Made by a program: the position numbers and the translations under genes. A DNA stretch of 64,000 nucleotides from Saccoglossus kowalevskii (lineage: Eukaryota; Hemichordata; Enteropneusta; Harrimaniidae), in NCBI RefSeq assembly GCF_000003605.2, contig NW_003117245.1, positions 18,388-82,387 on the forward strand, given 5' to 3'. The notes under the pieces were generated by a model. The model made no database searches, was not told where the DNA came from, and was given only the letters and a program-made list of their open reading frames with translations. This document shows, piece after piece, positions 41,210-64,000 of this stretch; within the stretch, counting starts at the first letter, position 1, and each line of letters starts with the position of its first letter.

Positions 41210-41262
41210 GGCTACAAACTGGCCTTACCTAACTGTTCGACATATTTGGTACATTCAAGTTG
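41210..41262 (+). repeat. Gamma core 7 (53 bp, type A)
   Basis: It shares ACATTCAAG with core 1. The long tail (to about 42060) contains the ACAATGTACAG section twice (near 41819 and 42013), a 194-bp step. The whole block 41210 to about 42500 matches 50673 to about 51960 at an offset of 9,463 bp. Confidence 0.9.
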
Positions 41263-42059
41263 GGCTATAAACCATTCTTACTGCATGGGATACTCTGTAC
41301 AGCCCAGTAGGGCTTACAAACCAGTCTTACTGCATTGCATACATTGTATAACCCCGTAGGACTACAAACCAGTCTTACTGCATGGCATACACTGTACAGC
41401 CCAGTAGGGCTACATACCAGTCTTACTGCATGGCATACACTGTACAGCCTAGTAGGACTACAAAACAGTCTTACTGCATGGCATACACTGTACAGCCCAG
41501 CAGGGCTACATACCAGTCTCACTGCATGGCATACACTGTACAGCCCAGTAGGACTAAACCAGTTTTACTGCATGGCATACACTGTACAGCCCAGTAGGGC
41601 TACAAACCAGTCTTACTGCATGGCATGCGCTGTACAGCCCAGTAGGGCTACATACCAGTCATTACTTCATGGCAAACGCTGTACAGCCCAGTTGGGCTAC
41701 AAACTAGTCTCACTGCATGGCATACACTGTACAGCCCAGTAGGGCTACAAACCAGTCTTACTGCATGGCATACACTGTACAGCCCAGTAGGACTACAAAA
41801 CAGTCTTACTGCATGGCATACAATGTACAGCCCAGTTGGGCTACAAACTAGTCTTACTGCATGGCATACTCTGTACAGCCCAGTTGGGCTACAAACTAGT
41901 CTTACTGCATGGCATACACTGTACAGCCCAGTAGGGCTACAAACCAGTCTTACTGCATGGCATACACTGTACAGCCCAGTAGGACTACAAAACAGTCTTA
42001 CTGCATGGCATACAATGTACAGCCCAGTTGGGCTACAAACTAGTCTTACTGCATGGCAT

Positions 42060-42870
42060 ACTCTGTACAGCCCAGTTGGGCTACAAACTAGTCTTACTGT
42101 ATGGTATACACTGTACAGCCCAGTATGGCTACAAATCAGTTTTACTGCTTGGCATACACTGTACAGCCCAGTTGGGCTACAAACCTGTCTTACTGCATGG
42201 CATACACTGTACAGCCCAGTAGGGCTACATACCAGGCTTACTGCATGGAATACACTGTACAGCCCAGTAGGGCTACAAACTAGTCTTACTGCATGGTATA
42301 CACTGTACAGCCCAGTAGGACTACAAACCAGTCTTACTGCATGACATACCCTGTACAGCCCAGTTGGGCTACATACCAATCTTACTTCATGGCATACGCT
42401 GTACATTCCAGTTGGGATACAAACTAGTCATACTACATGACATACACTGTACAGCCCACTAGGACTACAAACCAGTCTCACAGCATGACATACACTGTAA
42501 AGCCCAGTAGGTCGTACTGCATGGCATACACTGTACAGCCCACTAGGACTACAAACCAGTCTCACAGCATGACATACACTGTAAAGCCCAGTAGGTCGTA
42601 CTGCATGGCATACATTGTACAGCCCAGAAGGGCTACATACCAGTCTTACTTCATGGCAAACGCTGTACAGCCCAGTTGGGCTACAAACTAGTTTCACTGC
42701 ATGGCATACACTGTACAGCTCAGTAGGGCTACAAACCAGTCTTACTGCATGGCATACTCTGTACAGCCCAGTAGGGCTACATACCAGTCTTACTTCATGG
42801 CAAACGCTGTACAGCCCAGTTGGGCTACAAACTAGTCTTACTGCTTGGTATACACTGTACAGCCCAGTTG
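42060..42870 (+). repeat. Short alpha segment between gamma cores
   Basis: D' (AGTATGGC), E, F, G, H, I (ATACCCTG), J (42389), K, L, then a second K/L copy, M, N, a CAGCTCAGTAGGG unit, P and N. It is a reduced HOR that starts at D and ends at N before CTTGGTATAC and core 8. Confidence 0.86.
42437..42604 (+). repeat. 84-bp tandem duplication of units K+L
   Basis: The K unit (CCCACTAGGACTAC) plus the 36-bp L unit occur twice in a row. This exactly explains why the interval between cores 7 and 8 (1,661 bp) is 84 bp longer than that between cores 10 and 11 (1,577 bp), which is otherwise almost the same sequence. Confidence 0.9.
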
Positions 42871-42923
42871 GGCTACAAACTGGCCTTACCTAACTGTTCG
42901 ACATATTTGGTACATCCAAGTTG
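42871..42923 (+). repeat. Gamma core 8 (53 bp, type A)
   Basis: The common full tail follows to about 43560, with the private marks TCTCGCTGCATGACATAC (near 43176) and ACACGGTACAGCCCAATAGG (near 43433). Confidence 0.9.
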
Positions 42924-43559
42924 GGCTATAAACCATTCTTACTGCATGGGATACTCTGTACAGCCCAGTAGGGCTTACAAACCAGTCTTACTGCATTGCA
43001 TACATTGTATAACCCCGTAGGACTACAAACCAGTCTTACTGCATGGCATACACTGTACAGCCCAGTAGGGCTACATACCAGTCTTACTGCATGGCATACA
43101 CTGTACAGCCTAGTAGGACTACAAAACAGTCTTACTGCATGGCATACACTGTACAGCCCAGCAGGGCTACATACCAGTCTCGCTGCATGACATACACTGT
43201 ACAGCCCAGTAGGACTAAACCAGTTTTACTGCATGGCATACACTGTACAGCCCAGTAGGGCTACAAACCAGTCTTACTGCATGGCATGCTCTGTACAGCC
43301 CAGTAGGGCTACATACCAGTCATTACTTCATGGCAAACGCTGTACAGCCCAGTTGGGCTACAAACTAGTCTCACTGCATGGCATACACTGTACAGCCCAG
43401 TAGGGCTACAAACCAGTCTTACTGCATGGCATACACGGTACAGCCCAATAGGACTACAAAACAGTCTTACTGCATGGCATACAATGTACAGCCCAGTTGG
43501 GCTACAAACTAGTCTTACTGCATGGCATACTCTGTACAGCCCAGTTGGGCTACAAACTA

Positions 43560-46490
43560 GTCTTACTGCATGGTATACACTGTACAGCCCAGTAGGGCTA
43601 CAAATCAGTTTTACTGCTTGGCATACACTGTACAGCCCAGTTGGGCTACAAACCTGTCTTACTGCATGGCATACACTGTACAGCCCAGTAGGGCTACATA
43701 CCATGCTTACTGCATGGAATACACTGTACAGCCCAGTATGGCTACAAACTAGTCTTACTGCATGGTATACACTGTACAGCCCAGTAGACTTACAAACCAG
43801 TCTTACTGCATGACATACACTGTACAAGCCCCGTTGGGCTACATACCAATCTTTACTTCATGACATACGCTGTACATTCCAGTTGGGGATACAAACTATT
43901 CTTACTACATTGAACATACACTGTACAGCCCACTAGGACTACAAACCCAGTCTCACAGCATGACATACACTGTAAAGCCCAGTAGGTCGTACTGCATGGC
44001 ATACACTGTACAGCCCAGAAGGGCTACATACCAGTCTTACTTCATGGCAAACGCTGTACAGCCCAGTTGGGCTACAAACTAGTCTCACTGCATGGCATAC
44101 ACTGTACAGCCCAGTAGGGCTACAAACCAGTCTTACTGCATGGCATACACTGTACTGCCCAGTAGAGCTACAAACCAGTCTTACTGCATTGCATACACTG
44201 TACAGCCCAGTTGGGCTACAAACCTGTCTTACTGCATGGCATACACTGTACAGCCCAGTAGGTCTACATACCAGGCTTACTGCATGTAATACACTGTACA
44301 GCCCAGTAGGGCTACAAACTAGTCTTACTGCATGGTATACACTGTACAGCCCAGTAGGACTACAAACCAGTCTTACTGCATGACATACGCTGTACAGCCC
44401 AGTTGGGCTACATACCAATCTTACTTCATGGCATACGCTGTACATTCCAGTTGGGATACAAACTAGTCTTACTACATGACATACACTGTACTGCCCAGTA
44501 GAGCTACAAACCAGTCTTACTGCTTGGCATACACTGTACAGCCCAGTTGGGCTACAAACCTGTCTTACTGCATGGCATACACTGTACAGCCCAGTAGGGC
44601 TACATACCAGGCTTACTGCATGGAATACACTGTACAGCCCAGTAGGGCTACAAATCAGTTTTACTGCTTGGCATACACTGTACAGCCCAGTTGGGCTACA
44701 AACCTGTCTTACTGCATGGCATACACTGTACAGCCCAGTAGGGCAACATACCAGGCTTACTGCATGGAATACACTGTACAGCCCAGTAGGGCTACAAACT
44801 AGTCTTACTGCATGGTATACACTGTACAGCCAAGTAGGACTACAAACCAGTCTTACTGCATGACATACGCTGTACAGCCCAGTTGGGCTACATACCAATC
44901 TTACTGCATGGCATACACTGTACTGCCCAGTAGAGCTACAAACCAGTCTTACTGCATTGCATACATTGTACAGCCCAGTCGGGCGTCAAACCAGTCTTAC
45001 TGCATGGCATACACTGTACTGTCCAGTAGAGCTACAAACCAGTCTTACTGCATGGCATACACTGTACAGCCCAGTAGGGCTACAAACCGGTCTTACTGCA
45101 TGGCATACACTGTACAGCCCAGTAGGGCTACAAACCGGTCTTACTGCATGGCATACACTGTACTGCCCAGTAGAGCTACAAACCAGTCTTACTGCTTGGC
45201 ATACACTGTACAGCCCAGTTGAGCTACAAACCGGTCTTACTGCATGGCATACACTGTACAGCCCAGTTGGGCTACAAACCAGTCTTACTGCATGGCATAC
45301 ACTGTACAGCCCAGTAGGGCTACATACCAGGCTTACTGCATGGAATACACTGTACAGCCCAGTAGGGCTACAAACTAGTCTTACTGCATGGTATACACTG
45401 TACAGCCAAGTAGGACTACAAACCAGTCTTACTGCATGACATACGCTGTACAGCCCAGTTGGGCTACATACCAATCTTACTGCATGGCATACACTGTACT
45501 GCCCAGTAGAGCTACAAACCAGTCTTACTGCATTGCATACATTGTACAGCCCAGTCGGGCGTCAAACCAGTCTTACTGCATGGCATACACTGTACTGTCC
45601 AGTAGAGCTACAAACCAGTCTTACTGCATGGCATACACTGTACAGCCCAGTAGGGCTACAAACCAGTTTTACTGCTTGGCATACACTGTACAGCCCAGTT
45701 GGGCTACAAACCTGTCTTACTGCATGGCATACACTGTACAGCCCAGTAGGGCTACATACCAGGCTTACTGCATGGAATACACTGTACAGCCCAGTAGGGC
45801 TACAAATCAGTTTTACTGCTTGGCATACACTGTACAGCCCAGTTGGGCTACAAACCTGCCTTACTGCATGGCATACACTGTACAGCCCAGTAGGGCTACA
45901 TACCAGGCTTACTGCATGGAATACACTGTACAGCCCAGTAGGGCTACAAACTAGTCTTACTGCATGGTATACACTGTACAGCCAAGTAGGACTACAAACC
46001 AGTCTTACTGCATGACATGCGCTGTACAGCCCAGTTGGGCTACATACCAATCTTACTGCATGGCATACACTGTACTGCCCAGTAGAGCTACAAACCAGTC
46101 TTACTGCATTGCATACATTGTACAGCCCAGTCGGGCGTCAAACCAGTCTTACTGCATGGCATACACTGTACTGTCCAGTAGAGCTACAAACCAGTCTTAC
46201 TGCATGGCATACACTGTACAGCCCAGTAGGGCTACAAATCAGTTTTACTGCTTGGCATAACTGTACAGCCCAGTTGGGCTACAAACCTGTCTTACTGCAT
46301 GGCATACACTGTACAGCCCAGTAGGGCTACATACCAGGCTTACTGCATGGAATACACTGTACAGCCCAGTAGGGCTACAAACTAGTCTTACTGCATGGTA
46401 TACACTGTACAGCCCAGTAGGACTACAAACCAGTCTTACTGCATGACATACGCTGTACAGCCCAGTTGGGCTACATACCAATCTTACTGC
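43560..46490 (+). repeat. Alpha mosaic region 11
   Basis: J units lie near 43860 and at about 44429. The interval 43790-43950 holds at least six inserted bases (GTACAAGCCCC, AATCTTTAC, GTTGGGGATAC, ACATTGAACATAC, AAACCCAGTC). A K/A hybrid at 44476 bypasses L. GGTCTTACTGC units at 45085-45290 match 6658-6850. From 44812 the A-I series is repeated three times with small changes. Confidence 0.83.
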
Positions 46491-46669
46491 GTGGCATACA
46501 CTGTAAAGCCCAGTTGGGCTACATACCAATATTACTGCAGGGCATACACTGTACAGTCAGTTGGGCTACAAACTAGTCTTACTGCATGGCATACTCTGTA
46601 CAGCCCAGTATGGCTACAAACTAGTCTTACTGCATGGCATACTCTGTACAGCCCAGTAGGTCGTACTGC
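46491..46669 (+). repeat. Beta entry fused to an L-type unit
   Basis: The entry unit (GTAAAGCCC variant, 46491), the 47-bp unit (46539-46585) and CAGTATGGC (46586) are followed by a unit starting as beta (CATACTCTG) and ending as L (AGTAGGTCGTACTGC), 36 bp at 46634-46669. It is a clear chimeric monomer. Confidence 0.85.
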
Positions 46670-46957
46670 ATGGCATACACTGTACAGCCCAGAAGGGCTA
46701 TATACCAGTCTTACTTCATGGCAAACGCTGTACAGCCCAGTTGGGCTACAAACTAGTCTCACTGCATGGCATACACTGTACAGCCCAGTAGGGCTACAAA
46801 CCAGTCTTACTGCATGGCATACTCTGTACAGCCCAGTAGGGCTACATACCAGTCTTACTTCATGGCAAACGCTGTACAGCCCAGTTGGGCTACAAACTAG
46901 TCTCACTGCATGGCATACACTGTACAGCCAAGTAGGGCTACAAACCAGTCTTACTGC
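46670..46957 (+). repeat. Short alpha piece M-N-O-P-N
   Basis: Units M (with CTATATACC), N, O, P, N and a CCAAGTAGGG unit lie between two beta entries. The same M-N-O-P-N-CCAAGTAGGG order precedes the beta at 57319. Confidence 0.83.
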
Positions 46958-47990
46958 GTGGCATACACTGTAAAGCCCAGTTGGGCTACATACCAATATT
47001 ACTGCAGGGCATACACTGTACAGTCAGTTGGGCTACAAACTAGTCTTACTGCATGGCATACTCTGTACAGCCCAGTATGGCTACAAACTAGTCTTACTGC
47101 ATGGCATACTCTGTACAGCCCAGTATGGCTACAAACTAGTCTTACTGCATGGCATACTCTGTACAGCCCAGTATGGCTAAAAACCAGTCTTACTGCATGG
47201 CATACACTGTACAGCCCAGTAGAGCTACAAACCAGTCTTACTGCATGGCATACACTGTACTGCCCAGTAGAGCTACAAACCAGTCTTACTGCATGGTATA
47301 CACTGTACAGCCCAGTAGGGTTACACACCAGTCTTACTGCATGGCATACTCTGTACAGCCCAGTTGGGCTACACACCAGTCTTACCTCATGGCATACACT
47401 GTACAGCCCAGTTGGGCTACAAACTAGTCGTACTGCATGGCATACACTGTACAGCCCAGTAGAACTACAAACCAGTTTTACTGCATGGCATACACTGTAC
47501 AGCCCAGTATGGCTACAAAACAGTCTTATTGCATGGCATACTCAGTACAGCCCAGTTCGGCTACAAACTAGTCTTACTGCATGGCATAATCTGTACAGCC
47601 CAGTAGGGCTAAAAACCAGTCTCACTGCATGGCATACACTGTACAGCCCAGTAGAGCTACAAATCAGTCTTACTGCATGGTATACACTGTACTGCCCAGT
47701 AGAGCTACAAACCAGTCTAACTGCATGGCATACACTGTACAGCCCAGTAGGGCTACAAATCAGTCTTACTGCATGGCATACACTGTACAGCCCAGTAGGA
47801 CTACAAACCAGTCTTACTGCATGGAATACACTGTACAGCCCAGTTGGGCTACACACCAGTCTTACTGCATGGCATACTCTGTACATCCCAGTTGTGCGAC
47901 ACACCAGTCCTACCTCATGGCATACACTGTACAGCCCAGTTGGGCTACACACCAGTCTTACTGCATGGCATACACTGTACAGCCCAGTTG
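46958..47990 (+). repeat. Complete beta segment
   Basis: The entry unit has GTAAAGCCC. There are three CAGTATGGC units before CAGTATGGCTAAAAACC (47149). All later beta marks are present, including AGGGTTACACACC (near 47320), CATAATCTG and GTACATCCCAGTTGTGCG (near 47882). It matches 57319-58303 at an offset of 10,313 bp, changing to 10,265 after about 47760 because of one extra unit here. Confidence 0.88.
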
Positions 47991-48043
47991 GGCTACAAAC
48001 TGGCCTTACCTAACTGTTCGACATATTTGGTACATCCAAGTTG
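47991..48043 (+). repeat. Gamma core 9 (53 bp, type A)
   Basis: It follows beta directly without the CTTGGTATAC unit. The full tail runs to about 48690 and carries AGTAGAACTACAAAAC near 48232. Confidence 0.9.
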
Positions 48044-48689
48044 GGCTATAAACCATTCTTACTGCATGGGATACTCTGTACAGCCCAGTAGGGCTTACAA
48101 ACCAGTCTTACTGCATTGCATACATTGTATAACCCCGTAGGACTACAAACCAGTCTTACTGCATGGCATACACTGTACAGCCCAGTAGGGCTACATACCA
48201 GTCTTACTGCATGGCATACACTGTACAGCCTAGTAGAACTACAAAACAGTCTTACTGCATGGCATACACTGTACAGCCCAGCAGGGCTACATACCAGTCT
48301 CACTGCATGGCATACACTGTACAGCCCAGTAGGACTAAACCAGTTTTACTGCATGGCATACACTGTACAGCCCAGTAGGGCTACAAACCAGTCTTACTGC
48401 ATGGCATGCTCTGTACAGCCCAGTAGGGCTACATACCAGTCATTACTTCATGGCAAACGCTGTACAGCCCAGTTGGGCTACAAACTAGTCTCACTGCATG
48501 GCATACACTGTACAGCCCAGTAGGGCTACAAACCAGTCTTACTGCATGGCATACACTGTACAGCCCAGTAGGACTACAAAACAGTCTTACTGCATGGCAT
48601 ACAATGTACAGCCCAGTTGGGCTACAAACTAGTCTTACTGCATGGCATACTCTGTACAGCCCAGTTGGGCTACAAACTAGTCTTACTGC

Positions 48690-49775
48690 ATGGTATACAC
48701 TGTACAGCCCAGTAGGGCTACAAATCAGTTTTACTGCTTGGCATACACTGTACAGCCCAGTTGGGCTACAAACCTGTCTTACTGCATGGCATACACTGTA
48801 CAGCCCAGTAGGGCTACATACCAGGCTTACTGCATGGAATACACTGTACAGCCCAGTAGGGCTACAAACTAGTCTTACTGCATGGTATACACTGTACAGC
48901 CCAGTAGGACTACAAACCAGTCTTACTGCATGACATACGCTGTACAGCCCCGTTGGGCTACATACCAATCTTACTTCATGGCATACACTGTACATTCCAG
49001 TTGGGATACAAACTAGTCTTACTACATGACATACACTGTACAGCCCACTAGGACTACAAACCAGTCTCACAGCATGACATACACTGTACAGCCCAGTCGG
49101 GCGTCAAACCAGTCTTACTGCATGGCATACACTGTACTGTCCAGTAGAGCTAGAAACCAGTCTTACTGCATGGCATACACTGTACAGCCCAGTAGGGCTA
49201 CAAATCAGTTTTACTGCTTGGCATACACTGTACAGCCCAGTTGGGCTACAAACCTGTCTTACTGCATGGCATACACTGTACAGCCCAGTAGGGCTACATA
49301 CCAGGCTTACTGCATGGAATACACTGTACAGCCCAGTAGGGCTACAAACTAGTCTTACTGCATGGTATACACTGTACAGCCCAGTAGGACTACAAACCAG
49401 TCTTACTGCATGACATACGCTGTACAGCCCAGTTGGGCTACATACCAATCTTACTGCATGGCATACACTGTACTGCCCAGTAGAGCTACAAACCAGTCTT
49501 ACTGCATTGCATACATTGTACAGCCCAGTCGGGCGTCAAACCAGTCTTACTGCATGGCATACACTGTACTGTCCAGTAGAGCTACAAACCAGTCTTACTG
49601 CATGGCATACACTGTACAGCCCAGTAGGGCTACAAATCAGTTTTACTGCTTGGCATACACTGTATAGCCCAGTTGGGCTACATACCAATATTACTGCTTG
49701 GCATACACTGTACAGCCCAGTTGGGCTACAAACCTGTCATACTGCATGGCATACACTGTACAGCCAAGTAGGGCT
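48690..49775 (+). repeat. Alpha segment with a K/L-to-B junction
   Basis: H/D, E, F, G, H, I (GCCCCGTTGGGC), J and K are followed at 49074 by a unit that starts as L (ATGACATACACTG) and continues as B (CAGTCGGGCGTC). C, D, E, F, G, H, I, A, B, C and D then follow, ending with AATATTACTGCTTGG, a beta-entry/E hybrid. Confidence 0.84.
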
Positions 49776-50034
49776 ACATACCAGTCATTACTTCATGGCA
49801 AACGCTGTACAGCCCAGTTGGGCTACAAACTAGTCTCACTGCATGGCATACACTGTACAGCCCAGTAGGGCTACAAACCAGTCTTACTGCATGGCATACA
49901 CTGTACAGCCCAGTAGGACTACAAAACAGTCTTACTGCATGGCATACAATGTACAGCCCAGTTGGGCTACAAACTAGTCTTACTGCATGGCATACTCTGT
50001 ACAGCCCAGTTGGGCTACAAACTAGTCTTACTGT
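49776..50034 (+). repeat. Gamma tail end without core
   Basis: GTCATTACTTC (near 49790), N, O, AGGACTACAAAAC and ACAATGTACAG (near 49947) are present, entered from a CCAAGTAGGG unit. Core and proximal tail are missing. Confidence 0.84.
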
Positions 50035-50672
50035 ATGGTATACACTGTACAGCCCAGTATGGCTACAAATCAGTTTTACTGCTTGGCATACACTGTACAG
50101 CCCAGTTGGGCTACAAACCTGTCTTACTGCATGGCATACACTGTACAGCCCAGTAGGGCTACATACCAGGCTTACTGCATGGAATACACTGTACAGCCCA
50201 GTAGGGCTACAAACTAGTCTTACTGCATGGTATACACTGTACAGCCCAGTAGGACTACAAACCAGTCTTAGTGCATGGCATACTCTGTACAGCCCAGTAG
50301 GGCTACATACCAATCTTACTACATGACATACACTGTACAGCCCACTAGGACTACAAACCAGTCTCACAGCATGACATACACTGTAAAGCCCAGTAGGTCG
50401 TACTGCATGGCATACACTGTACAGCCCAGAAGGGCTACATACCAGTCTTACTTCATGGCAAACGCTGTACAGCCCAGTTGGGCTACAAACTAGTTTCACT
50501 GCATGGCATACACTGTACAGCTCAGTAGGGCTACAAACCAGTCTTACTGCATGGCATACTCTGTACAGCCCAGTAGGGCTACATACCAGTCTTACTTCAT
50601 GGCAAACGCTGTACAGCCCAGTTGGGCTACAAACTAGTCTTACTGCTTGGTATACACTGTACAGCCCAGTTG
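50035..50672 (+). repeat. Short alpha segment
   Basis: D' (AGTATGGC), E, F, G, an H unit ending CAGTCTTAGTGC, a P unit (CATACTCTG...ATACCAATC), K, L (near 50370), M, N, CAGCTCAGTAGGG, P and N. The I and J units are replaced by the single P-type unit. Confidence 0.84.
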
Positions 50673-50725
50673 GGCTACAAACTGGCCTTACCTAACTGTT
50701 CGACATATTTGGTACATCCAAGTTG
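50673..50725 (+). repeat. Gamma core 10 (53 bp, type A)
   Basis: Core and long tail duplicate core 7 and its tail, including the doubled ACAATGTACAG section (near 51283 and 51477). Confidence 0.9.
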
Positions 50726-51559
50726 GGCTATAAACCATTCTTACTGCATGGGATACTCTGTACAGCCCAGTAGGGCTTACAAACCAGTCTTACTGCATTG
50801 CATACATTGTATAACCCCGTAGGACTACAAACCAGTCTTACTGCATGGCATACACTGTACAGCCCAGTAGGGCTACATACCAGTCTTACTGCATGGCATA
50901 CACTGTACAGCCTAGTAGGACTACAAAACAGTCTTACTGCATGGCATACACTGTACAGCCCAGCAGGGCTACATACCAGTCTCACTGCATGGCATACACT
51001 GTACAGCCCAGTAGGACTAAACCAGTTTTACTGCATGGCATACACTGTACAGCCCAGTAGGGCTACAAACCAGTCTTACTGCATGGCATGCTCTGTACAG
51101 CCCAGTAGGGCTACATACCAGTCATTACTTCATGGCAAACGCTGTACAGCCCAGTTGGGCTACAAACTAGTCTCACTGCATGGCATACACTGTACAGCCC
51201 AGTAGGGCTACAAACCAGTCTTACTGCATGGCATACACTGTACAGCCCAGTAGGACTACAAAACAGTCTTACTGCATGGCATACAATGTACAGCCCAGTT
51301 GGGCTACAAACTAGTCTTACTGCATGGCATACTCTGTACAGCCCAGTTGGGCTACAAACTAGTCTTACTGCATGGCATACACTGTACAGCCCAGTAGGGC
51401 TACAAACCAGTCTTACTGCATGGCATACACTGTACAGCCCAGTAGGACTACAAAACAGTCTTACTGCATGGCATACAATGTACAGCCCAGTTGGGCTACA
51501 AACTAGTCTTACTGCATGGCATACTCTGTACAGCCCAGTTGGGCTACAAACTAGTCTTA

Positions 51560-52249
51560 CTGTATGGTATACACTGTACAGCCCAGTATGGCTACAAATC
51601 AGTTTTACTGCTTGGCATACACTGTACAGCTCAGTTGGGCTACAAACCTGTCTTACTGCATGGCATACACTGTACAGCCCAGTAGGGCTACATACCAGGC
51701 TTATTGCATGGAATACACTGTACAGCCCAGTAGGGCTACAAACTAGTCTTACTGCATGGTATACACTGTACAGCCCAGTAGGACTACAAACCAGTCTTAC
51801 TGCATGACATACCCTGTACAGCCCAGTTGGGCTACATACCAATCTTACTTCATGGCATACGCTGTACATTCCAGTTGGGATACAAACTAGTCATACTACA
51901 TGACATACACTGTACAGCCCACTAGGACTACAAACCAGTCTCACAGCATGACATACACTGTAAAGCCCAGTAGGTCGTACTGCATGGCATACACTGTACA
52001 GCCCAGAAGGGCTACATACCAGTCTTACTTCATGCCAAACGCTGTACAGCCCAGTTGGGCTACAAACTAGTTTCACTGCATGGCATACACTGTACAGCTC
52101 AGTAGGGCTACAAACCAGTCTTACTGCATGGCATACTCTGTACAGCCCAGTAGGGCTACATACCAGTCTTACTTCATGGCAAACGCTGTACAGCCCAGTT
52201 GGGCTACAAACTAGTCTTACTGCTTGGTATACACTGTACAGCCCAGTTG
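51560..52249 (+). repeat. Short alpha segment
   Basis: It has the same unit order as 42060-42870 but with a single K-L. Private marks are CAGCTCAGTTGGGC in E, CTTATTGC in F, and CATGCCAAACG in N (near 52033). Confidence 0.85.
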
Positions 52250-52302
52250 GGCTACAAACTGGCCTTACCTAACTGTTCGACATATTTGGTACATCCAAGT
52301 TG
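52250..52302 (+). repeat. Gamma core 11 (53 bp, type A)
   Basis: The tail is truncated: after the 46-bp AGGACTAAACCAG unit it passes through CATGAGCATAC (near 52612) to O and then to D-like units. GTCATTAC and ACAATGTACAG are missing. Four single-base indels lie between 52612 and 52710. Confidence 0.9.
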
Positions 52303-52689
52303 GGCTATAAACCATTCTTACTGCATGGGATACTCTGTACAGCCCAGTAGGGCTTACAAACCAGTCTTACTGCATTGCATACATTGTATAACCCCGTAGG
52401 ACTACAAACCAGTCTTACTGCATGGCATACACTGTACAGCCCAGTAGGGCTACATACCAGTCTTACTGCATGGCATACACTGTACAGCCTAGTAGGACTA
52501 CAAAACAGTCTTACTGCATGGCATACACTGTACAGCCCAGCAGGGCTACATACCAGTCTCACTGCATGGCATACACTGTACAGCCCAGTAGGACTAAACC
52601 AGTTTTACTGCATGAGCATACACTGTACAGCCCAGTAGGGCTACAAACCAGTCTTACTGCATGGCATACAGTGTACAGCCAGTTGGGCT

Positions 52690-53391
52690 ACAAACCTGTC
52701 TACTGCATGCATACACTGTACAGCCCAGTAGAGCTACAAATCAGTTTTACTGCCTGGCATACACTGTACAGCCCAGTTGGGCTACAAACCGGTCTTACTG
52801 CATGGCATACACTGTACAGCCCAGTAGGGCTACATACCAGTCTTACTGCATGGAATACACTGTACAGCCCAGTAGGGCTACAAACTAGTCTTACTGCATG
52901 GTATACACTGTACAGCCCAGTAGGACTACAAACCAGTCTTACTGCATGGCATACTCTGTACAGCCCAGTAGGGCTACATACCAATCTTACTTCATGGCAT
53001 ACGCTGTACATTCCAGTTGGGATACAAACTAGTCATACTACATGACATACACTGTACAGCCCACTAGGACTACAAACCAGTCTCACAGCATGACATACAC
53101 TGTAAAGCCCAGTAGGTCGTACTGCATGGCATACACTGTACAGCCCAGAAGGGCTACATACCAGTCTTACTTCATGGCAAACGCTGTACAGCCCAGTTGG
53201 GCTACAAACTAGTTTCACTGCATGGCATACACTGTACAGCTCAGTAGGGCTACAAACCAGTCTTACTGCATGGCATACTCTGTACAACCCAGTAGGGCTA
53301 CATACCAGTCTTACTTCATGGCAAACGCTGTACAGCCCAGTTGGGCTACAAACTAGTCTTACTGCTTGGTATACACTGTACAGCCCAGTTG
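52690..53391 (+). repeat. Short alpha segment
   Basis: D with AGTAGAGC, an E variant (CTGCCTGGC, AACCGGTC), F with CAGTCTTAC, G, H, a P unit, J, K, L (near 53100), M, N, CAGCTCAGTAGGG, P with GTACAACCC, N, then CTTGGTATAC. Confidence 0.84.
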
Positions 53392-53444
53392 GGCTACAAA
53401 CTGGCCTTACCTAACTGTTCGACATATTTGGTACATCCAAGTTG
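53392..53444 (+). repeat. Gamma core 12 (53 bp, type A)
   Basis: This core has the longest proximal tail of all: the AGGACTACAAAAC / AGGGCTACATACC pair occurs once more than usual (about 53710-53805), adding 96 bp. One unit reads CTGTTCAGCCC (near 53862). The tail ends near 54186. Confidence 0.9.
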
Positions 53445-54186
53445 GGCTATAAACCATTCTTACTGCATGGGATACTCTGTACAGCCCAGTAGGGCTTACA
53501 AACCAGTCTTACTGCATTGCATACATTGTATAACCCCGTAGGACTACAAACCAGTCTTACTGCATGGCATACACTGTACAGCCCAGTAGGGCTACATACC
53601 AGTCTTACTGCATGGCATACACTGTACAGCCTAGTAGGACTACAAAACAGTCTTACTGCATGGCATACACTGTACAGCCCAGCAGGGCTACATACCAGTC
53701 TCACTGCATGGCATACACTGTACAGCCCAGTAGGACTACAAAACAGTCTTACTGCATGGCATACACTGTACAGCCCAGAAGGGCTACATACCAGTCTCAC
53801 TGCATGGCATACACTGTACAGCCCAGTAGGACTAAACCAGTTTTACTGCATGGCATACACTGTTCAGCCCAGTAGGGCTACAAACCAGTCTTACTGCATG
53901 GCATGCTCTGTACAGCCCAGTAGGGCTACATACCAGTCATTACTTCATGGCAAACGCTGTACAGCCCAGTTGGGCTACAAACTAGTCTCACTGCATGGCA
54001 TACACTGTACAGCCCAGTAGGGCTACAAACCAGTCTTACTGCATGGCATACACTGTACAGCCCAGTAGGACTACAAAACAGTCTTACTGCATGGCATACA
54101 ATGTACAGCCCAGTTGGGCTACAAACTAGTCTTACTGCATGGCATACTCTGTACAGCCCAGTTGGGCTACAAACTAGTCTTACTGC

Positions 54187-54750
54187 ATGGTATACACTGT
54201 ACAGCCCAGTAGGGCTACAAATCAGTTTTACTGCTTGGCATACACTGTACAGCCCAGTTGGGCTACAAACCTGTCTTACTGCATGGCATACACTGTACAG
54301 CCCAGTAGGGCTACATACCAGGCTTACTGCATGGAATACACTGTACAGCCCAGTAGGGCTACAAACTAGTCTTACTGCATGATATACACTGTACAGCCCA
54401 GTAGGACTACAAACCAGTCTTACTGCATGACATACGCTGTACAGCCCCGTTGGGCTACATACCAATCTTACTTCATGGCATACACTGTACATTCCAGTTG
54501 GGATACAAACTAGTCTTACTACATGACATACACTGTACAGCCCACTAGGACTACAAACCAGTCTCACAGCATGACATACACTGTAAAGCCCAGTAGGTCG
54601 TACTGCATGGCATACACTGTACAGCCCAGAAGGGCTACATACCAGTCTTACTTCATGGCAAACGCTGTACAGCCCAGTTGGGCTACAAACTAGTCTCACT
54701 GCATGGCATACACTGTACAGCCCAGTAGGGCTACAAATCAGTCTTACTGC
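54187..54750 (+). repeat. Short alpha segment
   Basis: H/D, E, F, G, an H variant (CATGATATAC), I with GCCCCGTTGGGC, J (CATACACTGTACATTCC), K, L (near 54570), M, N and O with AATCAG, after which the order changes to beta. Confidence 0.84.
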
Positions 54751-54990
54751 ATGGTATACACTGTACTGCCCAGTAGAGCTACAAACCAGTCTAACTGCAT
54801 GGCATACACTGTACAGCCCAGTTGGGCTACACACCAGTCTTACTGCATGGCATACTCTGTACAGCCCAGTTGTGCGACACACCAGTCCTACCTCATGGCA
54901 TACACTGTACAGCCCAGTTGGGCTACACACCAGTCTTACTGCATGGCATACACTGTACAGCCCAGTTGGGCTACAAACCAGTCTTACTGC
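54751..54990 (+). repeat. Distal beta piece
   Basis: The unit with CTGCCCAGTAGAGC and CAGTCTAACTGC, two CTACACACC units, TTGTGCGACACACC (near 54868) and CTACCTCATGG are present. It ends in an ordinary TTGGGC unit instead of a gamma core. Confidence 0.83.
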
Positions 54991-55275
54991 ATGGCATACT
55001 CTGTACAGCCCAGTAGGACTACAAACCAGTTTTACTGCATGGCATACTCTGTACAGCCCAGTAGGACTACAAACCAGTTTTACTGCATGGCATACTCTGT
55101 ACAGCCCAGTAGTACTACAAACCAGTTTTACTGCATGGCATACTCTGTACAGCCCAGTAGGACTACAAACCAGTTTTACTGCATGGCATACTCTGTACAG
55201 CTCAGTAGACTACAAACCAGTTTTACTGCATGGCATATTCTGTACTGCCCAGTAGGGCTTACAAACCAGTTCTAC
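54991..55275 (+). repeat. Delta run of five near-identical monomers
   Basis: Units carry CATACTCTG with AGGACTAC, one with AGTACTAC, matching the run at 31258-31448. The fifth is one base short (CTCAGTAGACTAC) and the next reads CATATTCTGTACTGCCC with GGGCTTAC, the type-B gamma form. Confidence 0.83.
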
Positions 55276-56466
55276 TGCATTGCATACATTGTACAGCCCA
55301 GTCGGGCGTCAAACCAGTCTTACTGCATGGCATACACTGTACTGCCCAGTAGAGCTACAAACCAGTCTTACTGCATGGCATACACTGTACAGCCCAGTAG
55401 GGCTACAAATCAGTTTTACTGCTTGGCATACACTGTACAGCCCAGTTGGGCTACAAACCTGTCTTACTGCATGGCATACACTGTACAGCCCAGTAGGACT
55501 ACAAACCAGTCTTACTGCATGACATGCGCTGTACAGCCCAGTTGGGCTACATACCAATCTTACTGCATGGCATACACTGTACTGCCCAGTAGAGCTACAA
55601 ACCAGTCTTACTGCATTGCATACATTGTACAGCCCAGTCGGGCGTCAAACCAGTCTTACTGCATGGCATACACTGTACTGTCCAGTAGAGCTACAAACCA
55701 GTCTTACTGCATGGCATACACTGTACAGCCCAGTAGGGCTACAAATCAGTTTTACTGCTTGGCATAAACTGTACAGCCCAGTTGGGCTACAAACCTATCT
55801 TACTGCATGGCATACACTGTACAGCCCAGTAGGGCTACATACCAGGCGTACTGCATGGAATACACTGTACAGCCCAGTATGGCTACAAACTAGTCTTACT
55901 GCATGGTATACACTGTACAGCCCAGTAGGGCTACAAATCAGTCTTACTGCATGGCATACTCTGTACAGCCCAGTAGGACTACAAACCAGTCTTACTGCAT
56001 GGCATACTCTGTACAGCCCAGTAGGACTACAAACCAGTCTTACTGCATGACATACGCTGTACAGCCCAGTTGGGCTACATACCAATCTTACTTCATGGCA
56101 TACGCTGTACATTCCAGTTGGGATACAAACTAGTCTTACTACATGACATACACTGTACAGCCCACTAGGACTACAAACAAGTCTCACAGCATGACATACA
56201 CTGTAGAGCCCAGTAGGTCGTACTGCATGGCATACACTGTACAGCCCAGAAGGGCTATATACCAGTCTTACTTCATGGCAAACGCTGTACAGCCCAGTTG
56301 GGCTACAAACTAGTCTCACTGCATGGCATACACTGTACAGCCCAGTAGGGCTACATACCAGTCTTACTTCATGGCAAACGCTGTACAGCCCAGTTGGGCT
56401 ACAAACTAGTCTCACTGCATGGCATACACTGTACAGCCCAGTAGGGCTACAAACCAGTCTTACTGC
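55276..56466 (+). repeat. Alpha mosaic region
   Basis: B, A, D, E, O/H, I (CATGCGCTG), A, B, C, D, E with GGCATAAAC, F ending GGCGTACTGC, G with AGTATGGC, then two CATACTCTG...AGGACTAC units, I, J (56095), K, L, M, N, an O/P hybrid, N and O. The part 55280 to about 56020 matches 7957 to about 8697 at an offset of 47,323 bp. J here is 804 bp before the next J. Confidence 0.86.
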
Positions 56467-56994
56467 ATGACATACACTGTACTGCCCAGTAGAGCTACAA
56501 ACCAGTCTTACTGCATTGCATACATTGTACAGCCCAGTCGGGCGTCAAACCAGTCTTACTGCATGGCATACACTGTACTGCCCAGTAGAGCTACAAACCA
56601 GTCTTACGGCATGGCATACACTGTACAGCCCAGTAGGGCTACAAATCAGTTTTACTGCTTGGCATACACTGTACAGCCCAGTTGGGCTACAAACCTGTCT
56701 TACTGCATGGCATACACTGTACAGCCCAGTAGGGCTACATACCAGGCTTACTGCATGGAATACACTGTACAGCCCAGTAGGGCTACAAACTAGTCTTACT
56801 GCATGGTATACACTGTACAGCCCAGTAGGACTACAAACCAGTCTTACTGCATGACATACGCTGTACAGCCCAGTTGGGATACATACCAATCTTACTTCAT
56901 GGCATACGCTGTACATTCCAGTTGGGATTCAAACTAGTCTTACTACATGACATACACTGTACAGCCCACTAGGACTACAAACCAGTCTCACAGC

Positions 56995-57030
56995 ATGACA
57001 TACACTGTAGAGCCCAGTAGGTCGTACTGC
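56995..57030 (+). repeat. Exemplar 36-bp deletion monomer (unit L)
   Basis: A 12-bp deletion joins CAGTAGG to TCGTACTGC, removing the GCTACAAACCAG part of the unit. It follows the K unit (CCCACTAGGACTAC) in almost all alpha copies. I count roughly 38 copies in the window. Because 12 bp are lost, reading frame is kept. The right half of the inverted repeat AGCCC/GGGCT is destroyed in this unit. Confidence 0.9.
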
Positions 57031-57126
57031 ATGGCATACACTGTACAGCCCAGAAGGGCTATATACCAGTCTTACTTCATGGCAAACGCTGTACAGCCCA
57101 GTTGGGCTACAAACTAGTCTCACTGC

Positions 57127-57174
57127 ATGGCATACACTGTACAGCCCAGTAGGGCTACAAACCAGTCTTACTGC
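57127..57174 (+). repeat. Exemplar consensus 48-bp monomer
   Basis: This copy matches the by-eye consensus at every position. It has 24 G+C of 48 and no CpG. It carries the 8-bp palindrome CTGTACAG (with the hexamer TGTACA inside) followed directly by an inverted repeat AGCCC-AGTA-GGGCT. In the common variant with TTGGGCT the dyad grows to AGCCCA-GT-TGGGCT. Because 48 is 16 codons, reading frame is preserved from unit to unit. Confidence 0.95.
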
Positions 57175-57318
57175 ATGGCATACTCTGTACAGCCCAGTAG
57201 GGCTACATACCAGTCTTACTTCATGGCAAACGCTGTACAGCCCAGTTGGGCTACAAACTAGTCTCACTGCATGGCATACACTGTACAGCCAAGTAGGGCT
57301 ACAAACCAGTCTTACTGC

Positions 57319-58303
57319 GTGGCATACACTGTATAGCCCAGTTGGGCTACATACCAATATTACTGCAGGGCATACACTGTACAGTCAGTTGGGCTACAAA
57401 CTAGTCTTACTGCATGGCATACTCTGTACAGCCCAGTATGGCTACAAACTAGTCTTACTGCATGGCATACTCTGTACAGCCCAGTATGGCTAAAAACCAG
57501 TCTTACTGCATGGCATACACTGTACAGCCCAGTAGAGCTACAAACCAGTCTTACTGCATGGCATACACTGTACTGCCCAGTAGAGCTACAAACCAGTCTT
57601 ACTGCATGGTATACACTGTACAGCCCAGTAGGGTTACACACCAGTCATACTGCATGGCATACTCTGTACAGCCCAGTTGGGCTACACACCAGTCTTACCT
57701 CATGGCATACACTGTACAGCCCAGTTGGGCTACAAACTAGTCGTACTGCATGGCATACACTGTACAGCCCAGTAGAACTACAAACCAGTTTTACTGCATG
57801 GCATACACTGTACAGCCCAGTATGGCTACAAAACAGTCTTATTGCATGGCATACTCAGTACAGCCCAGTTCGGCTACAAACTAGTTTTACTGCATGGCAT
57901 AATCTGTACAGCCCAGTAGGGCTAAAAACCAGTCTCACTGCATGGCATACACTGTACAGCCCAGTAGAGCTACAAATCAGTCTTACTGCATGGTATACAC
58001 TGTACTGCCCAGTAGAGCTACAAACCAGTCTAACTGCATGGCATACACTGTACAGCCCAGTAGGGCTACAAACCAGTCTTACTGCATGGAATACACTGTA
58101 CAGCCCAGTTGGGCTACACACCAGTCTTACTGCATGGCATACTCTGTACATCCCAGTTGTGCGACACACCAGTCCTACCTCATGGCATACACTGTACAGC
58201 CCAGTTGGGCTACACACCAGTCTTACTGCATGGCATACACTGTACAGCCCAGTTGGGCTACAAACTAGTCGTACTGCATGGTATACACTGTACAGCACAG
58301 TTG
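57319..58303 (+). repeat. Complete beta segment
   Basis: The entry unit is at 57319 and the last unit before the core (ATGGTATAC, GTACAGCACAG) at 58278, a span of 959 bp: 20 units, one of them 47 bp. All beta marks occur in order. It shares AGGGTTACACACC and GTACATCCCAG with the copy at 46958. Confidence 0.88.
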
Positions 58304-58356
58304 GGCTACAAACTGGCCTTACCTAACTGTTCGACATATTTGGTACATCCAAGTTG
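58304..58356 (+). repeat. Gamma core 13 (53 bp, type A)
   Basis: The tail lacks the 46-bp AGGACTAAACCAG unit and the GTCATTAC unit: after CAGCAGGG (about 58595) it goes directly to AACTAGTCTCACTGC. As a result the frame is kept and a 316-codon minus-strand stop-free stretch crosses it. The ACAATGTACAG section is present twice (near 58771 and 58965). Confidence 0.9.
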
Positions 58357-59059
58357 GGCTATAAACCATTCTTACTGCATGGGATACTCTGTACAGCCCA
58401 GTAGGGCTTACAAACCAGTCTTACTGCATTGCATACATTGTATAACCCCGTAGGACTACAAACCAGTCTTACTGCATGGCATACACTGTACAGCCCAGTA
58501 GGGCTACATACCAGTCTTACTGCATGGCATACACTGTACAGCCTAGTAGGACTACAAAACAGTCTTACTGCATGGCATACACTGTACAGCCTAGCAGGGC
58601 TACATACCAGTCTCACTGCATGGCATACACTGTACAGCCCAGTAGGGCTACAAACTAGTCTCACTGCATGGCATACACTGTACAGCCCAGTAGGGCTACA
58701 AACCAGTCTTACTGCATGGCATACACTGTACAGCCCAGTAGGACTACAAAACAGTCTTACTGCATGGCATACAATGTACAGCCCAGTTGGGCTACAAACT
58801 AGTCTTACTGCATGGCATACTCTGTACAGCCCAGTTGGGCTACAAACTAGTCTTACTGCATGGCATACACTGTACAGCCCAGTAGGGCTACAAACCAGTC
58901 TTACTGCATGGCATACACTGTACAGCCCAGTAGGACTACAAAACAGTCTTACTGCATGGCATACAATGTACAGCCCAGTTGGGCTACAAACTAGTCTTAC
59001 TGCATGGCATACTCTGTACAGCCCAGTTGGGCTACAAACTAGTCTTACTGTATGGTATA

Positions 59060-59689
59060 CACTGTACAGCCCAGTATGGCTACAAATCAGTTTTACTGCT
59101 TGGCATACACTGTACAGCCCAGTTGGGCTACAAACCTGTCTTACTGCATGGCATACACTGTACAGCCCAGTAGGGCTACAAACTAGTCTTACTGCATGGT
59201 ATACACTGTACAGCCCAGTAGGAATACAAACCAGTCTTACTGCATGACATACCCTGTACAGCCCAGTTGGGCTACATACCAATCTTACTTCATGGCATAC
59301 GCTGTACATTCCAGTTGGGATACAAACTAGTCATACTACATGACATACACTGTACAGCCCACTAGGACTACAAACCAGTCTCACAGCATGACATACACTG
59401 TAAAGCCCAGTAGGTCGTACTGCATGGCATACACTGTACAGCCCAGAAGGGCTACATACCAGTCTTACTTCATGGCAAACGCTGTACAGCCCAGTTGGGC
59501 TACAAACTAGTTTCACTGCATGGCATACACTGTACAGCTCAGTAGGGCTACAAACCAGTCTTACTGCATGGCATACTCTGTACAGCCCAGTAGGGCTACA
59601 CACCAGTCTTACTTCATGGCAAACGCTGTACAGCCCAGTTGGGCTACACACTAGTCTTACTGCTTGGTATACACTGTACAGCCCAGTTG
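59060..59689 (+). repeat. Short alpha segment
   Basis: D' (AGTATGGC), E, G-like, H with AGGAATAC (near 59220), I (ATACCCTG), J, K, L, M, N, CAGCTCAGTAGGG, P with CTACACACC, N with ACACTAGTC, CTTGGTATAC. Confidence 0.84.
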
Positions 59690-59742
59690 GGCTACAAACT
59701 GGCCTTACCTAACTGTTCGACATATTTGGTACATCCAAGTTG
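59690..59742 (+). repeat. Gamma core 14 (53 bp, type A)
   Basis: It has the short tail form like core 2 (96 bp shorter), with CAGGCTTAC and CCAAGTAGGACTAAACC replacing the usual units. The tail ends near 60290. Confidence 0.9.
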
Positions 59743-60289
59743 GGCTATAAACCATTCTTACTGCATGGGATACTCTGTACAGCCCAGTAGGGCTTACAAA
59801 CCAGTCTTACTGCATTGCATACATTGTATAACCCCGTAGGACTACAAACCAGTCTTACTGCATGGCATACACTGTACAGCCCAGTAGGGCTACATACCAG
59901 GCTTACTGCATGGCATACACTGTACAGCCAAGTAGGACTAAACCAGTTTTACTGCATGGCATACACTGTACAGCCCAGTAGGGCTACAAACCAGTCTTAC
60001 TGCATGGCATGCTCTGTACAGCCCAGTAGGGCTACATACCAGTCATTACTTCATGGCAAACGCTGTACAGCCCAGTTGGGCTACAAACTAGTCTCACTGC
60101 ATGGCATACACTGTACAGCCCAGTAGGGCTACAAACCAGTCTTACTGCATGGCATACACTGTACAGCCCAGTAGGACTACAAAACAGTCTTACTGCATGG
60201 CATACAATGTACAGCCCAGTTGGGCTACAAACTAGTCTTACTGCATGGCATACTCTGTACAGCCCAGTTGGGCTACAAACTAGTCTTAC

Positions 60290-62861
60290 TTCATGGTATA
60301 CACTGTACAGCCCAGTAGGGCTACAAATCAGTTTTACTGCTTGGCATACACTGTACAGCCCAGTTGGGCTACAAACCTGTCTTACTGCATGGCATACACT
60401 GTACAGCCCAGTAGGGCTACATACCAGGCTTACTGCATGGAATACACTGTACAGCCCAGTAGGGCTACAAACTAGTCTTACTGCATGGTATACACTGTAC
60501 AGCCCAGTAGTGACTACAAACCAGTCTTACTGCATGACATACGCTGTACAGCCCCGTTGGGCTACATACCAATCTTACTTCATGGCATACACTGTACATT
60601 CCAGTTGGGATACAAACTAGTCTTACTACATGACATACACTGTACAGCCCACTAGGACTACAAACCAGTCTCACAGCATGACATACACTGTAAAGCCCAG
60701 TAGGTCGTACTGCATGGCATACACTGTACAGCCCAGAAGGGCTACATACCAGTCTTACTTCATGGCAAACGCTGTACAGCACAGTTGGGCTACAAACTAG
60801 TCTCACTGCATGGCATACACTGTACAGCCCAGTAGGGCTACAAACCAGTCTTACTGCATGGCATACTCTGTACAGCCCAGTAGGGCTACATACCAGTCTT
60901 ACTTCATGGCAAACGCTGTACAGCCCAGTTGGGCTACAAACTAGTCTTACTGCATGGCATACACTGTACTGCCCAGTAGAGCTACAAACCAGTCTTACTG
61001 CATTGCATACATTGTACAGCCCAGTCGGGCGTCAAACCAGTCTTACTGCATGGCATACACTGTACTGTCCAGTAGAGCTAGAAACCAGTCTTACTGCATG
61101 GCATACACTGTACAGCCCAGTAGGGCTACAAATCAGTTTTACTGCTTGGCATACACTGTACAGCCCAGTTGGGCTACAAACCTGTCTTACTGCATGGCAT
61201 ACACTGTACAGCCCAGTAGGGCTACATACCAGGCTTACTGCATGGAATACACTGTACAGCCCAGTAGGGCTACAAACTAGTCTTACTGCATGGTATACAC
61301 TGTACAGCCCAGTAGGACTACAAACCAGTCTTACTGCATGACATACGCTGTACAGCCCAGTTGGGCTACATACCAATCTTACTGCATGGCATACACTGTA
61401 CTGCCCAGTAGAGCTACAAACCAGTCTTACTGCATTGCATACATTGTACAGCCCAGTCGGGCGTCAAACCAGTCTTACTGCATGGCATACACTGTACTGT
61501 CCAGTTGGGCTACAAACCAGTCTTACTGCATGGTATACACTGTACAGCCCAGTAGGGCTACAAATCAGTTTTACTGCTTGGCATACACTGTACAGCCCAG
61601 TTGGGCTACAAACCAGTCTTACTGCATTGCATACACTGTACAGCCCAGTAGGGCTACAAATCAGTTTTACTGCTTGGCATACACTGTACAGCCCAGTTGG
61701 GCTACAAACCAGTCTTACTGCATGGTATACACTGTACAGCCCAGTAGGGCTACAAACCTGTCTTACTGCATGGTATACACTGTACAGCCCAGTAGGGCTA
61801 CAAATCAGTTTTACTGCATGACATACACTGTACAGCCCAGTAGGGCTACATACCAATCTTACTGCATGGCATACACTGTACTGCCCAGTAGAGCTACAAA
61901 CCAGTCTTACTGCTTGGCATACACTGTACAGCCCAGTTGGGCTACAAACCTGTCTTACTGCATGGCATACACTGTACAGCCCAGTAGGGCTACATACCAG
62001 GCTTACTGCATGGAATACACTGTACAGCCCAGTAGGGCTACAAATCAGTTTTACTGCTTGGCATACACTGTACAGCCCAGTTGGGCTACAAACCTGTCTT
62101 ACTGCATGGCATACACTGTACAGCCCAGTAGGGCTACATACCAGGCTTACTGCATGGAATACACTGTACAGCCCAGTAGGGCTACAAACTAGTCTTACTG
62201 CATGGTATACACTGTACAGCCAAGTAGGACTACAAACCAGTCTTACTGCATGGCATACACTGTACAGCCCAGTAGGGCTACATACCAGGCTTACTGCATG
62301 GAATACACTGTACAGCCCAGTAGGGCTACAAACTAGTCTCACAGCATGACATACACTGTAGAGCCCAGTAGGTCGTACTGCATGGCATACACTGTACAGC
62401 CCAGTAGGGCTACATACCAGTCTTACTTCATGGCAAACGCTGTACAGCCCAGTTGGGCTACAAACTAGTCTTACTGCATGGCATACACTGTACTGCCCAG
62501 TAGAGCTACAAACCAGTCTTACTGCATTGCATACATTGTACAGCCCAGTCGGGCGTCAAACCAGTCTTACTGCATGGCATACACTGTACTGTCCAGTAGA
62601 GCTACAAACCAGTCTTACTGCATGGCATACACTGTACAGCCCAGTAGGGCTACAAATCAGTTTTACTGCTTGGCATACACTGTACAGCCCAGTTGGGCTA
62701 CAAACCTGTCATACTGCATGGCATACACTGTACAGCCAAGTAGGGCTACAAACCAGTCTTACTGCATGGCATACTCTGTACAGCCCAGTATGGCTAAAAA
62801 CCAGTCTTACTGCATGGCATACTCTGTACAGCCCAGTATGGCTAAAAACCAGTCTTACTGC
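60290..62861 (+). repeat. Alpha mosaic region 20
   Basis: H/D to I, with an extra T (AGTAGTGACTAC, near 60508), J (CATACACTGTACATTCC), K, L, M and N with GTACAGCACAG, then repeated A-I series. Between 61500 and 61850 D, E and H units are shuffled in pairs. Near 62335-62375 a G unit passes directly into an L-type unit. The final A-B-C-D-E-O run is the copy of 3433-3816. Confidence 0.83.
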
Positions 62862-63798
62862 GTGGCATACACTGTATAGCCCAGTTGGGCTACATACCAA
62901 TATTACTGCAGGGCATACACTGTACAGTCAGTTGGGCTACAAACTAGTCTTACTGCATGGCATACTCTGTACAGCCCAGTATGGCTACAAACTAGTCTTA
63001 CTGCATGGCATACTCTGTACAGCCCAGTATGGCTAAAAACCAGTCTTACTGCATGGCATACACTGTACAGCCCAGTAGAGCTACAAACCAGTCTTACTGC
63101 ATGGCATACACTGTACTGCCCAGTAGAGCTACAAACCAGTCTTACTGCATGGTATACACTGTACAGCCCAGTAGGGCTACACACCAGTCTTACTGCATGG
63201 CATACTCTGTACAGCCCAGTTGGGCTACACACCAGTCTTACCTCATGGCATACACTGTACAGCCCAGTTGGGCTACAAACTAGTCGTACTGCATCGCATA
63301 CACTGTACAGCCCAGTAGGACTACAAACCAGTTTTATTGCATGGCATACTCAGTACAGCCCAGTTCGGCTACAAACTAGTCTTACTGCATGGCATAATCT
63401 GTACAGCCCAGTAGGGCTAAAAACCAGTCTCACTGCATGGCATACACTGTACAGCCCAGTAGAGCTACAAATCAGTCTTACTGCATGGTATACACTGTAC
63501 TGCCCAGTAGAGCTACAAACCAGTCTAACTGCATGGCATACACTGTTCAGCCCAGTAGGGCTACAAACCAGTCTTACTGCATGGAATACACTGTACAGCC
63601 CAGTTGGGCTACACACCAGTCTTACTGCATGGCATACTCTGTACAGCCCAGTTGTGCGACACACCAGTCCTACCTCATGGCATACACTGTACAGCCCAGT
63701 TGGGCTACACACCAGTCTTAATGCATGGCATACACTGTACAGCCCAGTTGGGCTACAAACTAGTCGTACTGCATGGTATACACTGTACAGCCCAGTTG
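62862..63798 (+). repeat. Beta segment before the last gamma core
   Basis: The entry unit lies at 62862 and the 47-bp unit at 62910-62956. From the entry unit to the last unit before the core (63773) is 911 bp, one 48-bp unit less than the 57319 copy because the CAGTATGGCTACAAAAC unit is merged with its neighbour at 63293-63340. One unit has CTGTTCAGCCC (near 63544). Confidence 0.88.
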
Positions 63799-63851
63799 GG
63801 CTACAAAATGGCCTTACCTAACTGTTCGACATATTTGGTACATCCAAGTTG
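63799..63851 (+). repeat. Gamma core 15 (53 bp, type B)
   Basis: AAAATGGCC and the following GATATTCTGTACTGCCC mark it as type B, like cores 4 and 6. Those two are each followed by a type-A core within 350 bp, so one is expected just beyond the window end. The last 40 bases contain two inserted T residues (GTCTTTACTTGC). Confidence 0.88.
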
Positions 63852-64000
63852 GGCTATAAACCATTCTTACAGCATGGGATATTCTGTACTGCCCAGTAGT
63901 GCTTACAAACCAGTCTTACTGCATTGCATACATTGTACAGCCCAGTAGGGCGTCAAACCAGTCTTTACTTGCATTGCATACATTGTATAGCCCCGTATGA

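Follow-up and report, generated by a model that had tools for sequence, protein, structure and literature searches.

A 48-bp hemichordate satellite organized as a mosaic of dispersed, ordered cassettes

We found that a 64,000-bp stretch of hemichordate DNA (the window; positions 18388–82387 of contig C1078, which is 82,387 bp long) is a mosaic of cassettes, composed of variants of a 48-bp monomer, with several loop lengths (432, 576, 708 and 804 bp). An 804-bp block within it, which a sequence-only reading had described as a repeating 17-monomer higher-order repeat (HOR), is one of these cassettes, and its copies are scattered through the array instead of lying in tandem. The contig contains cassettes of fixed order, dispersed copies of them and recombinant monomers at their junctions, and we consider it likely that the window is a mosaic HOR satellite shaped by in-register unequal exchange or by the copying of segments. 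The satellite is ordinary in kind; its exchange junctions are unusually easy to read, and the genome seems to contain many sister families.

The 48-bp array and the order of its variants

TRF assigned the window to one head-to-tail array of 1339 copies (62–63997), and the autocorrelation at a lag of 48 was 0.808, in agreement with the unit length given by the sequence-only reading. GC content and skew were flat throughout. Decomposition of the window yielded 1340 monomers, of which 1165 were exactly 48 bp long, with 353 distinct sequences. Base agreement of these monomers with the consensus was 92.8%, random pairs of monomers were on average 86% identical (0.861), and copies of a single variant differed by 0.6–2.9% among the 14 variants tabulated. 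The remaining 18.4 kb of C1078 consists of the 48-bp repeat all through, as judged from k-mer counts per kb, and the whole contig gave 1725 monomers (418 distinct). Clustering at up to 2 edits sorted these into 111 groups, of which many were small, and lumped near-consensus monomers in variant A, which has 252 members. An array of this kind, with one unit repeated head to tail for tens of kb, is a satellite or minisatellite.

Two observations concern the unit itself. It may be composed of three diverged 16-mers, as 21 of its 48 positions match at a shift of 16; the agreement had P = 0.0036 for this shift and P = 0.063 once any shift was allowed, so that a 16-bp origin is only suggestive. To the left of the window, at window coordinate −4001, C1078 also contains a lone 57-bp monomer in which two variants meet, with a register shift of 9 bp, at a short stretch common to both, possibly an illegitimate junction.

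Named variants had been said to recur in a fixed order, and this was borne out: the next variant could be predicted from one neighbour with a leave-one-out accuracy of 63%, compared with 12% after permutation. The window contained 1,733 runs of at least five monomers matched within 2 edits, the longest of 29 monomers, whereas three permutations of the order gave longest matched runs of 3–5 monomers and at most one run of 5. The variants most like the rest were the main branch points of the order (Spearman −0.61, P = 1.8e-4, 33 variants), a correlation that may arise partly from the clustering, which lumps near-consensus monomers.

We asked whether selection acts on the order or on the half-palindromic stretch GCCCAGTAGGGC, for example in a centromere or a binding-site array. 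The monomer has a short hairpin, the array is long and of a single orientation, and CpG is depleted (o/e 0.114), all of which would suit selection; such depletion would be expected if the array is methylated. When five stretches were folded, however, they did no better than their shuffles (z −0.2 to −1.35), and on these values we rejected selection for a hairpin or dyad. Selection of this kind is thus unlikely in our view. The order of the variants appears to be free of it, and our guess is that the array serves as structural heterochromatin.

The 804-bp block and its copies

In monomer phase (56448–57251) and with contig-wide labels, the reported block reads K-H-N-A-B-A-E-C-F-L-O-M-J-D-G-A-D. 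The 10-monomer part AECFLOMJDG of its core (Table 1) occurs in 26 exact-label copies in the contig, with a mean pairwise divergence of 1.16%. The length of 804 bp is not a multiple of 48 but 15 × 48 + 46 + 38, and 17 monomers amount to 804 and not 816 bp because one pair of units has lost 12 bp. Three pairs of J units had been placed exactly 804 bp apart, and the pairs exist: the unit given earlier is identical at 11427, 12231, 13035 and 56110, with one mismatch at 56914. The pair at 56110 and 56914 is 62.6% identical over 804 bp, and the block and the 804 bp after it showed 30.0% identity. The 804-bp loops at about 11–13 kb and at about 55–57 kb have the 12-monomer core in common, but their 5-monomer linkers are different; thus, two different loops have reached the same length.

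Table 1. Positions of the array, the reported block, its copies and two recombinant monomers in the window.
Feature	Position	Strand	Basis or remark
48-bp tandem array	1..64000	+	TRF, monomer decomposition; consensus (one phase) TACAAACCAGTCTTACTGCATGGCATACACTGTACAGCCCAGTAGGGC
Reported 804-bp block	56467..57270	+	Variant labels
12-monomer core cassette A-B-A-E-C-F-L-O-M-J-D-G	56592..57155	+	Contig labels
Short units M (46 bp) and J (38 bp), together 84 bp, 12 bp less than two monomers	56976..57059	+	
804 bp preceding the reported block	55663..56466	+	93.2% identical to the block, linker monomers differ
Sole tandem 17-monomer run with at least 2 copies at up to 3 edits per monomer	11105..13324	+	2.76 copies, 804-bp lag
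Dispersed copy of the reported block	4201..5004	+	99.0%
Dispersed copy of the reported block	7056..7859	+	98.9%
Dispersed copy of the reported block	17771..18574	+	98.6%
Dispersed copy of the reported block	18815..19618	+	98.5%
Dispersed copy of the reported block	25215..26019	+	98.4%
Dispersed copy of the reported block	26773..27575	+	97.3%
Dispersed copy of the reported block	32750..33552	+	97.4%
Example recombinant monomer at a unique junction	49055..49102	+	Left and right parts from neighbour-predicted variants
Second recombinant monomer at a unique junction	62327..62372	+	

An autocorrelation peak at 804 had been expected to accompany the HOR. A local peak was indeed present (0.390, compared with 0.386 at 756 and 0.385 at 852), with an excess of about 0.005 over its neighbours, but it rose only slightly above the nearest multiples of 48 (0.388 at 768 and 0.374 at 816). 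Permuting the monomer order 100 times lowered the value at 804 to a mean of 0.271 (maximum 0.303), which shows that the order is real; the peak itself rests mainly on the one local run in Table 1. We also took exact lags and counted, contig-wide, how many monomers matched within 2 edits at each. Above 400 bp, the count was highest for 432 bp (112 of 722), followed by 804 bp (68 of 392), 576 bp (64 of 532) and 708 bp (56 of 383). The share at 804 (17.3%) was slightly above that at 432 (15.5%); some long lags with fewer comparisons scored higher, for example 901 bp (33/98).

Tandem copies were rare. At an identity of at least 97%, adjacent 17-monomer windows numbered 23 in the contig and formed one uninterrupted run (starts 10912 to 11957). 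At up to 3 edits per monomer, units of 5–120 monomers gave only two further runs of at least 2 copies, a 14-mer at 26193–27509 and a 19-mer that lies to the left of the window. At the threshold of 97%, the 12-, 14-, 19- and 24-mers gave few, single runs, and no tandem run was found in the contig for 5-, 9- or 30-mers.

Dispersed copies were abundant. The seven best copies of the reported block in the window were 97.3–99.0% identical to it, and the monomer-phased block (start 56448) had 9 copies in the contig by edit distance (97–99%), spaced 1044 to 23,717 bp apart. Across the contig, 849 of 1709 17-monomer windows had a non-overlapping copy at at least 97%; the lag to the best copy had a median of 423 monomers, compared with 502 for random placement, and 132 best copies lay within 50 monomers, compared with 48 expected, which indicates a local component. 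Matching pairs of 9-monomer windows made up 0.4–0.7% at all distances, up to the full contig. The divergence of core copies averaged 0.8% when they were less than 30 monomers apart and 1.3% when they were more than 960 apart.

These data bear on whether 17 monomers form a true HOR array of the alpha-satellite type, of which the contig would be a decayed edge and the regular core would lie elsewhere. The local peak at 804 and the 2.76 tandem copies are what such an array would provide, and so is a 17-mer-like loop of 806 bp in a second contig, C2103 (12,036 bases). However, the 38-bp short units of the window were spaced 804 bp apart in just 3 of 36 cases (range 84–4318, median 1529), one tandem run at at least 97% was found in 82 kb, and the linkers of the two 804-bp loops differ. 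Furthermore, in the assembly of 572,110,611 bases and 4830 contigs, the short-unit junction (M+J) matched exactly at only 46 places, of which C1078 has 40 and C2103 the other 6, so that no regular 17-mer core has been assembled. In C2103, the junctions were spaced 708, 806, 4649, 4029 and 1524 bp apart; in its first 2600 bp, 44 of 54 monomers were exact C1078 sequences and 51 of 54 were within one edit of one, and the C1078 cassettes stood in a different order. The spacings and the single tandem run led us to reject a regular 17-mer HOR, and a core elsewhere is improbable. The earlier description therefore does not hold for the array: its 804-bp unit is tandem in one local run, and 804 bp is not the array period. 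The array shares the fixed order of diverged monomers with alpha-satellite-type HORs; it does not repeat one unit many times in tandem at 95–100% identity. The duplication and scattering of its ordered blocks, with no one period, are those of an irregular or mosaic HOR.

Recombinant monomers and the origin of the mosaic

If segments had been joined inside monomers, recombinant monomers would lie at the joins. We defined the junction set as the monomers with a neighbour pair unique in the contig (149/1723): 51 equalled the variant expected from one neighbour, 42 were without candidates and 56 were testable. A monomer was scored as recombinant when its left part was that of the variant following its left neighbour elsewhere and its right part that of the variant preceding its right neighbour elsewhere. 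Exact in-register recombinants accounted for 21 of the 56. Random variants gave 3.3 and swapping the left and right roles gave 4. When the contexts of the 56 were shuffled, the mean was 1.2 and the maximum 6, and none of 300 shuffles reached 21. For some of the 21, the call depends on a single base close to one end, and point mutation could explain these. Together with the branch points described above, the recombinants favour homology-dependent, in-register exchange inside monomers. The variants are sufficiently distinct (86% mean identity) and the copies sufficiently young (about 1% divergence) for individual exchange junctions to be legible within 48-bp monomers.

The mosaic order might instead be an artefact of assembly, produced by a path traced through a collapsed repeat graph. 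Satellite makes up the whole contig, and 66.6% of its 100-mers and 4.2% of its 500-mers recur within it, so that short reads could be misjoined. Exact repeats of 800 bp or more are absent from it, however, and reads of a few kb would thus resolve it; in the sampled stretches, N runs started only at base 1 of contigs and none was internal; and joins at identical overlaps would not make new recombinant monomers inside single units. We therefore give the artefact little credence. Least of all do we believe in a repetitive protein-coding gene, which we rejected. The open frames on the minus strand (up to 1043 amino acids) follow from a consensus that alone has three stop-free frames out of six; 216 of the 1725 monomers break the frame, their lengths not being multiples of 3; and the variation does not dip where the codons of one clear frame would demand it. 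The satellite is presumably non-coding.

Given exchange inside monomers as the preferred explanation, the array would have started with the amplification of one ordered set of variants of a minisatellite-class, 48-bp unit in a hemichordate. Later exchanges would have linked separate sites of the array, with each join lying within monomers that resemble each other, and would have cut the order into cassettes of about 5–30 monomers scattered over the contig. Where two exchanges left a loop, a short tandem HOR would result, such as the 9-mer of 432 bp, the 17-mer of 804 bp and others; none of these loops would have taken over the array, and 804 bp would be one loop length among several. The local tandem 17-mer run and the modest local excess of copies indicate that local amplification also acts. 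Unequal crossing-over in meiosis or mitosis, gene conversion or break-induced copying would be the molecular route.

Arabidopsis CEN178 arrays, for which centromere function has been demonstrated, contain irregular HORs, in which ordered blocks of monomers are duplicated and dispersed and no single HOR prevails. The present array resembles them in these respects but differs in unit length and kingdom. Human VNTRs such as MS32, studied through minisatellite variant repeat maps, combine a short unit and interspersed variants with evidence of unequal exchange and complex conversion, and are typically under 20 kb. Our array likewise has a short unit, interspersed variants and evidence of unequal exchange, but it extends over 82 kb and has many more variants. 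Primate alpha-satellite HORs, including cascade HORs (PMC11276891), also consist of head-to-tail monomers whose diverged variants follow a fixed order with several loop lengths. They differ in having a 171-bp unit and in running in long tandem arrays of the HOR, whereas here the cassettes are dispersed and recombined. Reading junctions inside monomers is seldom possible in young HOR arrays, and, given long reads from several animals, the array could serve to measure the distance and frequency of satellite exchange in hemichordates.

Related arrays and other loci in the assembly

A 26-base pattern of the 48-bp family had 797 exact matches in the assembly, 578 in C1078 and 219 outside it, and none in reverse. 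We also sampled 20 other contig stretches non-randomly; six came from contigs numbered near 1078 and three were all N. The 48-bp family was absent, by three k-mers, from the 17 readable stretches. Other arrays took up the whole of seven of them (L018, L020, L021, L022, L023, L027 and L029), their units measuring 54, 33, 45, 30, 43, 44 and 47 bp, and five of these seven belong to the six contigs numbered near 1078. Ordered runs were well above permutation in six of the seven; L022 (30 bp, 97.6% mean identity, nearly uniform) was not clearly above its null. Like the 48-bp array, the six fill their sampled 10 kb and contain ordered runs, but their unit sequences are unlike the 48-bp unit. It is conceivable, if doubtful, that the genome keeps many unrelated 30–54-bp satellite families as well-mixed mosaics, with in-register exchange across whole arrays and no HOR becoming fixed. 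If it does, such a genome-wide regime would be a distinct long-term mode of satellite evolution, opposite to the local homogenization of primate alpha satellite, and recombinant monomers would record single exchanges at base resolution.

The sequence-only reading could not match the 48-bp unit to a described family, and neither could we in the collections and literature searched. Neither viral_contigs nor genome_contigs contained an exact copy of the pattern GCATRSMATACWCTGTACAGCCCAGT, and the 804-bp block had no match in plasmids or phages; these collections are mostly prokaryotic or viral, so that the negatives say little. Six 14–15-mers of the monomer were not found in the texts of the papers searched, and no satellite study in hemichordates was found among the entries that a literature search listed. 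Long-read assemblies of two hemichordates are reported in PMC11175523, the main text of which contains neither ‘tandem’ nor ‘satellite’. No RNA family reached its Rfam gathering score in the part of the window scanned (50000–64000).

Other loci were noted in the sampled stretches. L015 (C500:1–10000) contains a tandem array of tRNA-Ser (AGA) genes, with 36 ARAGORN hits in 10 kb, 33 of them tRNA-Ser and the others Phe or undetermined; its unit is about 261 bp, with a longer period of 1314 bp. L028 (C4000) has a 978-amino-acid open frame on the minus strand (3848–6781), which, judging from its translation by eye, resembles a leucine-rich-repeat receptor.

C4830 (17,037 bp; L031 is its first 10 kb) is mitochondrial, with a hemichordate-like gene order and code. 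With gene names that we assigned by reading the translations, the order is ATP6, CO3, Gly, ND3, Arg, ND4L, ND4, His, Ser, ND5, CYTB and Glu, followed by the minus-strand genes Pro and ND6 and then by Thr, Trp and other tRNAs; ND5 thus adjoins CYTB. ATA occurs where we would expect conserved isoleucines and AAA where we would expect lysines. According to PMC2697986, the nd5–cob adjacency is found in the two hemichordates and Xenoturbella; ATA encodes isoleucine in both echinoderms and hemichordates, but not in Xenoturbella; and AAA encodes lysine in Saccoglossus, is absent in Balanoglossus and encodes asparagine in echinoderms. The combination of gene order and code in C4830 fits a Saccoglossus-like hemichordate. 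The first bases of this contig form a 141-bp tandem repeat of 4.8 copies.
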